Assembly: GCF_029229925.1 (NCBI RefSeq)
Contig: NZ_CP107254.1
Span: forward strand, 558,001 to 622,000
Direction of reading: 5' to 3'
Source of the DNA: Halorhabdus sp. BNX81
GTDB taxonomy: Archaea > Halobacteriota > Halobacteria > Halobacteriales > Haloarculaceae
DNA: 64,000 nt
Shown here piece by piece: positions 20,168 to 61,755 of the stretch (positions within the stretch are counted from its first letter, which is position 1; every line of letters starts with the position of its first letter). The notes beneath the pieces are model-generated. The model was not told the origin of the DNA. It did no database searches and saw only the letters and a program-made list of their open reading frames with translations. Position numbers and translations under genes: made by a program.

Positions 20168-20668
20168 CACGACCCCGTTATGCGGGCGCGTTAATTGATA
20201 CCATGCCATTATATAGTGGTCCTTTATATGTTCGTGTGACAGGACGGGTTCAAGTACCCGGATTGACCAGTGGGGATCGGCCTGTCCGCCGGGACGAACT
20301 CCACAGGTGGCCGTCATCCGGCGGCTGTTTGGTGTCTCTCCGCTGGTGGTCTCGCGATCCGCGGGAATCGGTGCCGTCCCGCGTGTACCCTCCATGGATG
20401 GCCGAGCGACGAGCGTTGTCAGACGGTGAAAAGCGCTTACAGGCCATCGACGCCGCAAAACGATCCACTCGTTTAACAGGCCTCTCCGCTCACTGTCGAA
20501 ATGGGCCGGGACGCCCCCGTCCCCGGCCAGGATAGGTCTTGGACCTGTCTGGATCTCCATGCACGGTGGCGCGACGAGTTCGCCCCCCGAACTCGCCGCC
20601 CACCGCGTATCGACGCCGGGTTCGACCCCCTTCCCGGCATCCCCTTTCCCCTTTTCGTGAACTCATAG
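20168..20668. other. intergenic region with a strong hairpin
   Basis: About 500 bases without a convincing gene. The only structure I see is a hairpin at 20574-20594 (CGAGTTCG, six C, CGAACTCG), whose flanks GGTGGCG and CGCCGCCCACC extend the pairing. It is not followed by a T-run, so it is not an obvious terminator. The stretch GGGTTCGACCCCC at about 20623 looks like a tRNA T-loop but no tRNA fold surrounds it. Confidence 0.4.
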
Positions 20669-20884
20669 GGCGGTGTTCAGATAAGCACCGAGTAAGAAGC
20701 CTGTTTTCTCTGCTAATCAGCCAAATCCTGGCGGAATGAAAGGGCGAGCCAGTTTCGGGAACCCCGACGAAGTAAGCACTGCAGGGCGCGTAGCGCCCGA
20801 AGCGCGCAACGAGTCGCGGGACCGAAACTGGCGAGGGCTTTCAGAGTGGTTTCCATCTTTTCAGATCCTTATCTGAACACTATC
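20669..20884. mobile_element. 216-bp MITE, copy 1
   Basis: Non-coding element bounded by imperfect inverted ends sharing GTGTTCAGATAAG (left GGCGGTGTTCAG..., right ...CTGAACACTATC) and flanked by a perfect 8-bp direct repeat ACTCATAG (20661-20668 and 20885-20892). The second copy at 61489-61704 has the same length and its own 8-bp duplication. The core has an imperfect long hairpin (GAGCCAGTTTCGG with CCGAAACTGGCGAG) and no ORF. Eight-bp duplications fit IS6-family transposition; the parent element is not in the window. Confidence 0.85.
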
Positions 20885-21179
20885 ACTCATAGGCGTGCCT
20901 GTTCTGGGCCTGTTGCTCGTTGACGGGAGTCGCCACTGTGTCTCCGAAGGGGTCGTGCCTGGGGTGCAGCCGGAATGTGACGTGGGTGTTCGGTCCTGTA
21001 GGGGATCGCACGCACGGGGAGGACACAACCATACTACTGCGAGCGGATAGACACGTATCGTGAGCAAGCCGACGTGTTTGCGCGTGCCTGCGGGAGGCTC
21101 GGCTACGCGATATGGGATACTTCGTCCGTTGCGAGCGTGTGAGAAAAAACCGCGAGAAAATAGATGCTACGGCGCTACG

Positions 21180-21683
21180 TCAGGGTTCGTAGGTGTTGAT
21201 GACCTGGCTCTGGTCGCCTTCTGGGTCTTGCCAGATGAGTTCGACCGTCGCACCGGAGAGATCCAGCGTGTCCGGAGAGGCAGCACTCCAGTCGCTGCCC
21301 CCAGATGGGTCAAAGTCATTTTCGTCCATAACGACCTCATCTGAAGCGCCCATGTCGTCGGACCTACCCAAGTCGTCAGCAAAATTGAGATCGACATCCG
21401 AATTTGTCGTGTTGCCGACGCCACTAACGGAAAGCACGTATTCACTAGGCACGGCTTCTCCGCCGCCTTCATGCGTCAACGTGAAGCTATCGTGTCCCGT
21501 CGTCTGAATATCAAAGCTCGCGTCCCAGTTCGCGTTCGCGGGCGTACTCTCGCTTGGCCCCATGTTCATCACGAAGGTCGCGATCACTGCGGCCAGGATC
21601 ACAGTAATCGCCACCATCAGGATTACGCCGATGACCGGCGAGACACCACGATCGTCGTCGAAGAGATAATCTTTCAGATTCAT
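21180..21683 (-). CDS. archaeal type IV pilin (PilA-like), copy A
   Basis: 167 residues with an archaeal class III signal: charged DDDRG, then VSPVIGVILMVAITVILAAV; PibD should cut after the Gly so that the hydrophobic helix forms the pilus core. The exposed part is Ser/Asp/Gly-rich beta structure ending ELIWQDPEGDQSQVINTYEP. It follows the paralogue after four bases, so they are probably co-transcribed. Likely a minor or adhesion pilin; no biogenesis genes (pilB/pilC) are in the window. Confidence 0.9.
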   Translation of the reverse strand: MNLKDYLFDDDRGVSPVIGVILMVAITVILAAVIATFVMNMGPSESTPANANWDASFDIQTTGHDSFTLTHEGGGEAVPSEYVLSVSGVGNTTNSDVDLNFADDLGRSDDMGASDEVVMDENDFDPSGGSDWSAASPDTLDLSGATVELIWQDPEGDQSQVINTYEP

Positions 21684-21687
21684 GGGT

Positions 21688-22203
21688 TTATGGCTCGTAG
21701 GTGTCGATAATTTGAGTCTGGTCGCCCTCAGGGTCTTCCCAGATCAGCTGAATCTCATTGATATCTGTAACTACACCACTATCCAGGTGAACATAGCTAG
21801 CGGGGAGATCCGCATCAGCGATTGTCGTAGAGCCACTCGCATTGAAGACTTTCACAGTATCTGATGCGGACATTTCGGAGCCTGAGCTGTAGCCATCAAC
21901 GTCTGTAAATTGGATTGTTTCGGATGATCCGGCCACGTCAATTTTTAGCTTATATTCATCTACTGCAGCCGCACCACCACCTTCATGCGTCAACTGTGAG
22001 TAGATATCCACGTCACCCCCGGACGTGGCTTTTTCTTCACTCCAGTCCCAGTTCGCGTTCGCGGGCGTACTCTCGCTTGGCCCCATATTCATCACGAAGG
22101 TCGCGATCACCGCGGCCAGGATCACGGTGATCGCCACCATCAGGATGACCCCAATTACTGGCGATACGCCTGTGTCGTCGTCGAGTAGGGATTTCAAATC
22201 CAT
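21688..22203 (-). CDS. archaeal type IV pilin (PilA-like), copy B
   Basis: 171 residues, first gene of the tandem pair. The signal and core helix (DDDTGVSPVIGVILMVAITV through ATFVMNMGPSESTPANANWD) are almost identical to copy A, while the head domains diverge, sharing mainly the end LIWEDPEGDQTQIIDTYEP. This pattern suggests duplication with head-domain diversification. The product would be processed by PibD and assembled into surface pili. Confidence 0.9.
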   Translation of the reverse strand: MDLKSLLDDDTGVSPVIGVILMVAITVILAAVIATFVMNMGPSESTPANANWDWSEEKATSGGDVDIYSQLTHEGGGAAAVDEYKLKIDVAGSSETIQFTDVDGYSSGSEMSASDTVKVFNASGSTTIADADLPASYVHLDSGVVTDINEIQLIWEDPEGDQTQIIDTYEP

Positions 22204-35561: not shown

Positions 35562-35974
35562 TACACCGCGGTACGGAATGGACGCGCAAAAGCCCGTTGT
35601 CCCGTGGTGGGGGTGGTCTTTGGTTAATCGAGTCACGGTTGGGAACAGCCAGAAAGCCCCACCCAAGGCCGGTTGGTCAGCCGGCATGGGCAGGACTGAA
35701 AGGGGCGAGGCGTGCGCGGCGGTGCAACCGCCGCGACCATTCAAGGCCGGCTCGCCGGCCTCGCGCTCGGCGACGGCGCGAACGGGCAAGCACTGTCGTC
35801 CGAGAGAGCGAAGCGCGCGACCGGCGCACCGAGCCGACCGCATCGGGGCATTCTGGCTGTTCCAGGCGATCCCTGCGAAACGACACACTACCCAGGGCGG
35901 GGCGACGGGACAGCCCCCGGCCACGAAACTGCCGGGAGCCCAACGGTTACCCCCCGGCGTCCCCGCCTTCCACT
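35562..35974. other. intergenic region without a clear gene
   Basis: 413 bases between divergent larE and the luciferase-like gene. GC-rich inverted pieces occur (GCCGGCTCGCCGGC around 35749-35762, GCGGCGGTGCAACCGCCGC around 35718-35736), both possible hairpins. Open frames cross the region on both strands but have Arg/Pro-rich, shadow-like composition. I see no tRNA or defined ncRNA. Confidence 0.4.
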
Positions 35975-59652: not shown

Positions 59653-59727
59653 TACACTGCGGTAGGGGATTGGTCTGTAAAAACGGCGCGGGTTCGAATT
59701 TAGCCGACAGAACGTAGCGCTTTGATC

Positions 59728-59748
59728 GGTGCTTATCTGAACACCGCC
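59728..59748 (-). repeat. solo MITE terminal repeat
   Basis: The minus strand reads GGCGGTGTTCAGATAAGCAC C, identical to the left end of both 216-bp elements. The similarity drops after about 23 bases and no matching right end is nearby. It lies 25 bases before the TumE-like gene, so it may form part of that promoter. Confidence 0.75.
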
Positions 59749-59772
59749 TTGTATTCCGCACCAACAATTAAG

Positions 59773-60108
59773 ATGTTGCACTTCGTAACAACAACCGTGC
59801 CCGGAGATGATCCCGCCCAGCCCGTCATCGAGGTCACGAAGGACTTCGGTGACCGCTATGCTGAGATCAATGCCTACCGGGTGCCCGAATCAGATCGGTA
59901 TCCGGAAGGGATCAAGTACTCGATGCAGTATGGCAATGCTGCAGGGGAAACGATCCTTCGCTACGACAACTTCCCTGACCACCCGGATACGGCACGCCAT
60001 CACAAGCATACGGCCGACGGGAGTGTCGATGACGTCGAGTTCAACGGGCTGGAGTCTCTCTTCCAGCAGTTCAAATCAGAGGTAATCGAACATGGCCACG
60101 ACTGGTAA
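59773..60108 (+). CDS. TumE-like toxin
   Basis: 111 residues starting MLHFVTTTVPGDDPAQP, with RVPESDRYPEGIKYSMQYGN and DNFPDHPDTARHHKHT, the DUF6516/TumE layout. The HTH protein that follows overlaps it by 17 bases, an arrangement repeated in haloarchaea. Presumed RNase-type toxin of a TA module, inferred from the partner. Assignment from memory. Confidence 0.7.
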   Translation: MLHFVTTTVPGDDPAQPVIEVTKDFGDRYAEINAYRVPESDRYPEGIKYSMQYGNAAGETILRYDNFPDHPDTARHHKHTADGSVDDVEFNGLESLFQQFKSEVIEHGHDW

Positions 60109-60505
60109 CGATACTGACCGTACGCTTCACGTTCGCTTTCGCGAGGGTGACGACGAGCAACTCTCGGACACGCTCGCCGCCCTCGACCGAGGCGAGACAC
60201 CCGATCCGCATCTCGAAGTGGTCTACACGGACCCCGCGGACGTACACAGCGTAACACGACCGAAATCACTGGAACTGCTGCGGGCGATTGTCCAGCACGA
60301 ACCCGGGAGTATTCGTGAGACTGCACGCCTCGTCGAACGTGACGTGAGTCAGGTCCACCGTAATCTGACCGAACTTTCGGAGTTGCATTTGATCGATCTC
60401 GTCGAAGAGGGCCATGCCAAACGGCCGGTCGTGTGGTACGACGCGATCGATATCGATCTCCCGCTGGTGGCATCGGCCAGTGATTCGGACGAAGCTGTCG
60501 TGTAG
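60092..60505 (+). CDS. HTH antitoxin (HVO_A0114-like)
   Basis: 137 residues. Winged-helix centre: RPKSLELLRAIVQHEPGSIR, ETARLVERDVSQVHRNLTEL and LHLIDLVEEGHAKRPVVWYD. Matches the HVO_A0114 family of DNA-binding proteins that accompany TumE-like proteins. Probably binds its own promoter and neutralises the toxin. Confidence 0.75.
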   Translation: MATTGNDTDRTLHVRFREGDDEQLSDTLAALDRGETPDPHLEVVYTDPADVHSVTRPKSLELLRAIVQHEPGSIRETARLVERDVSQVHRNLTELSELHLIDLVEEGHAKRPVVWYDAIDIDLPLVASASDSDEAVV

Positions 60506-61457: not shown

Positions 61458-61488
61458 GAGCCGGATTCTTCCTGTCGTCGCCCCGTAC

Positions 61489-61704
61489 GGCGGTGTTCAG
61501 ATAAGCACCGAGCAAAGAGTTTGTTTCTCCTGCTTTTCAGCCGGATCCTGGCGGAATGAAAGGGCGAGCCAGTTTCGGGAACCCCGACGAAGCAAGCACT
61601 GCAGGCCGCAGCGCGGCCGAAGCGCGCAGCGAGGCGCGGGACCGAAACTGGCGAGGGCTTTCAGGGCAGTCTCACTCTGGTTAGATCCTTATCTGAACAC
61701 TACC
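61489..61704. mobile_element. 216-bp MITE, copy 2
   Basis: Same length, ends and core as copy 1 (20669-20884). Flanked by a perfect 8-bp direct repeat CCCCGTAC (61481-61488 and 61705-61712). The centre differs at scattered positions only. It separates htpX from the HTH/PIN module. Two insertions, each with a different 8-bp duplication, show independent transposition. Confidence 0.88.
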
Positions 61705-61755
61705 CCCCGTACAGTCGGAACTCTTATATCGAATTATGTATAACTCATAACTAGG

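Follow-up and report, generated by a model that had tools for sequence, protein, structure and literature searches.

MITEs that depend on transposases of haloarchaea belong to a kind of element already known (PMC3119063). The same source describes the SMR-A repeats of Haloquadratum, which are ~110 bp long, make no duplications and insert in the palindromes of other elements, the mechanism being given as unknown. The palindromes of Streptomyces telomeres have GNA-type triloops with sheared pairs and fold as single-stranded DNA (PMC7205883). The IS6 elements ISH29 and ISH15 share with the MITE analysed here the terminal GTGTTCAGATAAG, the left/right variants GGCGG or GGCAG / GGTAG and the 8-bp duplication; they differ in being 697 bp long with a transposase of 212-221 aa, whereas the MITE has no transposase and another interior.

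The 216-bp MITE, its copies and its probable IS6 partners

The window, i.e., the whole stretch of 64,000 nucleotides that was analysed, corresponds to G000:C1:558001-622000 on the one chromosome, 2,828,981 bases (2.83 Mb) long, of a genome of the genus Halorhabdus. It contains two MITE copies of equal length (86% identical), and the coordinates and the size of 216 bp given for each in the original prediction were exact (Table 1). The predicted 8-bp perfect direct repeats, different in the two copies, flank the elements exactly (ACTCATAG and CCCCGTAC). The MITE ends are GGCGGTGTTCAGATAAG...CTTATCTGAACACTAYC, with a conserved terminal match of 13 bp, or ~17 bp counting GGYRG. The element had been described as lacking an ORF, and we detected no coding ORF within either copy and no transposase gene in the element, nor an IS6-type one elsewhere on the chromosome. 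The conserved internal imperfect hairpin is also real in both copies.

The solo MITE end overlaps a pair of small genes (59722-60505), at the beginning of the ORF listed first; the pair matches Pfam TumE toxin and HVO_A0114 and adjoins an NMD3-family gene. Two neighbouring ORFs at 21180-22203 have archaeal pilin-type N-termini, nearly identical by eye.

Table 1. Positions of the MITE copies, their duplications and ends, and the hairpin cassette in the window
Feature	Positions	Strand	Remark
MITE copy 1 (216 bp), non-coding, IS6-type ends	20669..20884	+	
MITE copy 2 (216 bp)	61489..61704	+	orthologous site empty in G004 (H. tiamatea)
Left target-site duplication ACTCATAG, copy 1	20661..20668	.	
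Right target-site duplication ACTCATAG, copy 1	20885..20892	.	
Left target-site duplication CCCCGTAC, copy 2	61481..61488	.	
Right target-site duplication CCCCGTAC, copy 2	61705..61712	.	
Left end GGCGGTGTTCAGATAAG, copy 1	20669..20685	+	as in autonomous IS6 elements L079, L057
Right end, copy 1	20868..20884	-	reads GATAGTGTTCAGATAAG on - strand
Solo left end of the same MITE, no partner end	59726..59748	-	23/23 bases
Palindromic hairpin cassette (core), head CCTGGCGGAATGAAAG, copy 1	20725..20846	+	covariance model R1, 109.7 bits
Stem P2 5' arm, variable, covarying (copy 1)	20748..20758	+	
Stem P2 3' arm (copy 1)	20822..20832	+	
Cassette terminal hairpin GGGCGC-GTA-GCGCCC (copy 1)	20784..20798	+	compensated sequence variation between copies
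Hairpin cassette, copy 2	61545..61666	+	R1, 98.4 bits

The further copies that the original prediction suggested looking for do exist: the whole-genome search (20 matching pieces) detected ~15 MITE copies in the chromosome, several with different 8-bp duplications, plus one solo end. With the boundaries fixed by the GGYRGTGTTCAGATAAG ends, 8/8 duplications, all different, were found in eight copies (578669, 2377397, 619489, 1567092, 711043, 649068, 1273234 and, after a 2-nt boundary shift, 66953). The duplication is 7/8 in copy 285777 and 6/8 in copy 459628 (the latter by eye), and duplications are absent in five truncated, rearranged or diverged copies (1923584, 2271177, 624886, 2296777, 2189696). 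Among 96 end-to-end combinations, which span all loci compared, including autonomous IS6 elements and wrong end pairings, the flanking 8-mers agree 8/8 in 32 and 7/8 in 8; the control with mismatched left and right sides had 7 or 8 agreeing bases in 25 of 9,120 combinations. The pattern of MITE repeats and duplications is far beyond chance.

The comparison of orthologous sites, also proposed in the original prediction, showed that H. tiamatea (G004) has no element where copy 2 would be. Its flanks at this empty site are 92-94% identical, and the same two neighbours, the M48 peptidase and TrmB-like regulator genes, are present. For copy 1, the flanking region failed to align as one block within the genus, i.e., the flanks are not conserved together. 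H. tiamatea SARL4B has a MITE copy of its own in plasmid pHTIA (G004, C1:181378-181591). This copy straddles two annotated genes, covering the last part of an HNH endonuclease gene and the beginning of the hypothetical gene that follows (L248 2141-3092, pHTIA 181018-181969), so these gene calls are probably partly MITE sequence. In the genome collection, 16 loci matched a 19-base pattern of the MITE end, and the haloarchaeal ones include real MITEs; the matches in Henriciella, Morganella, Spirochaetes and Alphaproteobacteria were set aside, being about the chance number for the sequence scanned.

The profile search for the IS6/IS240 transposase (PF13610) gave no match in the own chromosome, with positive controls detected, and matches in 75 of 116 relatives. 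Several IS6 elements of relatives are 697 bp long, with MITE-like ends and 8-bp duplications. L079 and L081, both of this length, match the MITE ends in 13/13 positions and have the duplications TCCACCGG and AACGCCAC, respectively. ISH29 on pNRC200 has the ends GGCAGTGTTCAGATAAGG / GGTAGTGTTCAGATAAGC, also 13/13 with the MITE, and the duplication GATAGGCC. Within the same genus, G005 has two 697-bp IS6 elements with 13/13 ends (including L121) and an identical 221-aa transposase, which scores above the Pfam IS240 cut-off and is ~80% identical to the annotated ISH29 and ISH15 transposases; these same-genus copies (L121/L122) are without target duplications. The expectation of an IS6-type element with the same ends held for the relatives, where 8-bp duplications accompany it, and for the same genus; the own chromosome has none.

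Given the shared ends and duplication length, the enzyme that moved the MITE in trans was probably an IS6-family transposase like those of ISH29 and ISH15 in haloarchaea, recognising the GGYRGTGTTCAGATAAG ends and duplicating 8 bp of the target at insertion. With no IS6 element on the own chromosome, the MITE would have depended on a transposase supplied from elsewhere, and the family is perhaps stranded by now. The chromosome has no source of transposase, unless the assembly lacks a plasmid or another replicon, and recent mobility in the present genome is no more than a possibility.

The hairpin cassette: distribution, fold and modules

The DNA search of relatives with the MITE as query detected many genomes of other families that match query positions ~58-175 only. 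The matched region is a ~105-nt hairpin unit with the head GGYGGRAYTGAAAGGG and the tail GGGCTTTC, and in other genera the units often occur as head-to-head inverted doublets. In genus g21, doublets (L040-L043, L095-L103) have the same IS6-type ends as the MITE and 8-bp duplications. A further MITE family of the own genome, whose ends are also of IS6 type but differ in sequence (GTGTTTAGTTAAG-like), carries doublets (L170, L171, L173-L175) with duplications of 8/8 or 7/8 (8 bp in L170, L173 and L174), and this genome also has doublets with no IS6 end nearby (L143, L144). The core is a cassette independent of the 216-bp MITE, common to other IS6-type MITEs and free doublets.

The R1 covariance model detected 32 units in the own genome. 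It matched at least 47 of the 53 listed Halobacteriales genomes and, under strict filters, none of 242 other genomes of the phylum; owing to these filters and to a ceiling of 12 units scored per genome, the counts of the survey are lower bounds. No core was found in IMG/VR, searched with one exact core pattern, or in phage records. The window also contains, at 35612-35892 (L177), what is left of a member of this second MITE family, recognised by its doublet hairpins and GTGTTTAGTTAAG-like ends; its duplication is only 4/8, and it has a weak R1 match at 35767-35837.

The suspicion that the core is structured understated the result, as we detected a strongly covarying fold that exists independently of the MITE. 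In alignment A2 (23 ungapped units), 93.8% of cells are paired, both sides have changed in 22 of 36 pairs, and 44 columns are invariant, many of them unpaired. The covariation score is 0.488 vs 0.04-0.08 with slid partners, and none of 500 shuffles reached it. Shuffles leave relatedness in; the slid control, which removes it, falls far short of the score of the true pairs. The MITE-type core itself (alignment A3, 15 cores) has double changes in 13 of 35 pairs (0/500 shuffles). Stem P2 (nine pairs) is 99.7% paired in the GGGGC type, with 31 different arms among 36 units (66% for shuffled arms), and 96.6% paired in the GGGCGAG type, also with 31 different arms (54% for shuffled arms). About half of the pairwise P2 comparisons differ on both sides. 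The outer stem, TGAAAG/CTTTCA, is among the most conserved positions, together with unpaired purine motifs.

Folded as RNA, copy 1 is much more stable than its shuffles (z -4.3). The core is more stable than shuffles under both RNA and DNA parameters, the DNA fold of copy 2 being unexceptional (z -1.6). At Rfam gathering thresholds, the core was unmatched and only a tRNA was found in the window; the core as a known RNA family was dropped on this ground. A same-family MITE of G006 (L141, G006:C1:2313900-2314500) retains only GAAAGGGCGAGGGCTTTC of the hairpin, as a deletion between the two CGAG repeats would leave it. Nested insertion with 3-5 bp duplications could lie behind the internal mismatches (GGG/GGG, CGAG/CGAG); this is no more than a hypothesis, since L141 is explained equally well by a slippage deletion across direct repeats.

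Some copies (649k, 711k, 2190k) hold strings of extra perfect hairpins. L173 and its counterpart L188 in G006 have the same duplication; apart from two segments that L173 has in addition (56 and 53 bp, each made up of two hairpins), they are 99.3% identical. Whole-module steps were also detected in L192 vs L171, L135 vs L021 and L169 vs L186, and module M1 of L169 is absent from the orthologous copies L186 and L179. The ortholog pairs demonstrate module differences, whose direction may be gain or loss. L173 and L174 have the same modules and different duplications, which means that either the enlarged element moved whole or modules were exchanged. In L019, L021, L022, L137 and L169, a module starting CGCGTGGCGGC lies in the P2 5' arm, mostly just before TTYCGGG; most copies have GCCGACCTCCC at its end, and it is absent from the L169 orthologs.

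Among the free doublets, L169 and its counterpart L179 in G004 have colinear flanks (94% and 86%), and the doublet aligns best inverted (315 vs 111); by this alignment, it occupies the same place in G000 and G004 but in opposite orientation; L143/L178 was dropped as proof of inversion, as only the right flank aligns. The ~297-bp doublets L166 (G000) and L187 (G006) are 95.6% identical, with unrelated flanks on both sides. Three L166-type doublets are centred in inverted repeats of 8-10 bp (two of them perfect, the third with one mismatch by eye), and stems of at least 8 occurred in 3 of 5,000 trials of a random-position control.

With regard to DNA or RNA, G-U makes up 1.2-3.3% of P2 pairs vs 6.1% of stem pairs in ten tRNAs of haloarchaea; the ratio of one-sided to two-sided differences is 0.05-0.06 in P2 vs 0.22 in tRNA acceptor stems, this control being small for both values. 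G-U pairs do occur in A2 (columns 49/85 and 60/74). Of the 48 distinct module hairpins in the enlarged copies, 36 have a loop of exactly 3 nt, mostly GNA or its complement; among hairpins of the window, 9 of 79 have triloops. The scarcity of G-U and the GNA triloops speak for single-stranded DNA rather than RNA as the folded form, an argument short of proof, with the small tRNA control and the loop statistics as its basis.

Proposed explanation and its rivals

We consider it likely that the locus is a trans-mobilised IS6-type MITE with a separate, order-wide cassette that is kept as a folded single strand at the DNA level. The ~105-nt cassette rides in other IS6-type MITEs too and also stands alone as head-to-head doublets throughout Halobacteriales. 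Its folded form would comprise the outer TGAAAG/CTTTCA, the variable complementary P2, the unpaired purine motifs and a GNA-type loop, and the fold would act as a hairpin that extrudes when replication or transposition leaves the DNA single-stranded. Perfect stems would be kept up by repair of one arm on the template of the other, by the demands of an enzyme that recognises the structure, or by both. Larger copies would grow or shrink by gain or loss of triloop-hairpin modules and then move as whole MITEs. Action at the DNA level, templated upkeep of the stems and loop-targeted insertion as a general route are what we infer from the fold, the modules and the doublets.

Four rival explanations were weighed. 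The 216-bp element could be an internally deleted IS6 derivative with degraded transposase sequence as its core, and the ends and the duplication length are indeed common to the MITE and IS6 elements; but IS6 likeness was seen at the ends only, and this reading is contradicted because the core belongs to a separate repeat family that exists without IS6 ends. The core as degraded IS6 sequence was ruled out, since it is present without these ends and order-wide, and we regard the derivative as extremely improbable. If the core were instead a family of structured non-coding RNAs, whether transcribed, processed or cis-acting, which IS6-type MITEs acquired and disperse, this would agree with the very strong covariation plus conserved unpaired motifs, with the RNA fold of copy 1, with the order-wide distribution and with the orthologs 824k/769k, in which the hairpins are near-identical and the linker and immediate flanks have diverged. 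The RNA reading is unlikely in our view, given that Rfam has no match at gathering thresholds, P2 is poor in G-U and one-sided intermediates compared with tRNA acceptor stems, and the module loops have 3 nt and not 4 nt. Inverted doublets, moreover, have one unit per strand, so that any transcript of a doublet would contain one unit in sense and the other in antisense.

The perfect and variable stems could also be a by-product of mutation (quasi-palindrome correction, template switching at the fork), with a fold that has no function. P2 is nearly without intermediates though so many of its pairwise comparisons differ on both sides, and clean deletions at short direct repeats are seen, e.g., at GGGCGAG|GGCTTTC in G006 (L141). 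Mutation bias alone, however, would not preserve unpaired positions that are among the most conserved (many of the invariant A2 columns) or an architecture maintained across an order, and we doubt this explanation about as strongly as that of an RNA. Somewhat more plausible, and held tentatively, is a REP/REPIN-like or SMR-like mobile hairpin, moved as single-stranded DNA into hairpin loops, which colonised the IS6-type MITEs by chance. The near-identical L166/L187 doublets amid unrelated flanks, the three doublets at inverted-repeat centres, a position rare at random, the apparent inversion of L169/L179, the orthologs missing M1 and the H. walsbyi SMR-A repeats, which likewise target palindromes without duplications (PMC3119063), are all consistent with it. 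The profile search for the Y1 (HUH) transposase PF01797 gave no match in the chromosome (positive controls were detected), unlike RAYT-driven REPs, and REP with RAYT was rejected for this reason. Many own-genome copies, in addition, lie within IS6-ended elements, and the loop insertions examined in detail are only three; flank rearrangement could mimic mobility. A broader reading on top of the preferred trans-mobilised MITE with its DNA-level cassette is possible, more doubtful than not: an undescribed order-wide class of single-stranded DNA hairpins, with ever-changing matched stems, inserting into the loops of other hairpins and spreading alone and as passengers of several families of IS6-type MITEs.

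Comparison with known systems

The MITE family appears new as originally predicted, with no earlier description in the literature searched; MITEs moved by haloarchaeal transposases are already described (PMC3119063). The cassette looks undescribed: no description was found in Rfam or in the literature searched, a search that covers few subscription journals. The shared cassette matters more than the MITE, since its covariation is very strong for a dispersed repeat and it is present in most sampled Halobacteriales genomes. It is amenable to study in cultivable organisms, and it makes testable how perfect yet variable palindromes arise and persist and whether haloarchaea possess an enzyme recognising single-stranded DNA hairpins.

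The MITEs of Haloquadratum walsbyi are similar in being transposase-free, in sharing ends with transposons, in their duplications and in sometimes having no functional transposase in the genome; they belong to another organism and, in the accessible part of PMC3119063, no conserved covarying cassette is described. The SMR-A/PATEs of H. walsbyi are short, palindromic and non-coding as well (PMC3119063). By description there, the insertion of SMR-A into palindromes without duplication resembles the apparent behaviour of M1 and of the L166-type doublets, but copies of SMRs are said to differ little from one another, unlike the hypervariable P2 of the cassette.

REP/REPIN sequences are likewise dispersed palindromes, often inverted doublets (here in the doublets elsewhere, not in the 216-bp copies), with compensated stems; the cassette differs by its ~105-nt unit with internal stems, in which no GTAG/CGTC foot was noticed, and by the absence of a Y1 transposase from the chromosome. 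Streptomyces telomeres share a series of palindromes, 3-nt loops (GCA, GGA, GNA), sheared purine pairs, folding of single-stranded DNA and compensatory changes (PMC7205883), but they are chromosome ends and not dispersed repeats, and the likeness is structural, by description (PMC7205883). Taken together, the MITE fits a known kind of element, and what is new is a group of MITEs sharing one covarying hairpin cassette with expandable triloop modules.
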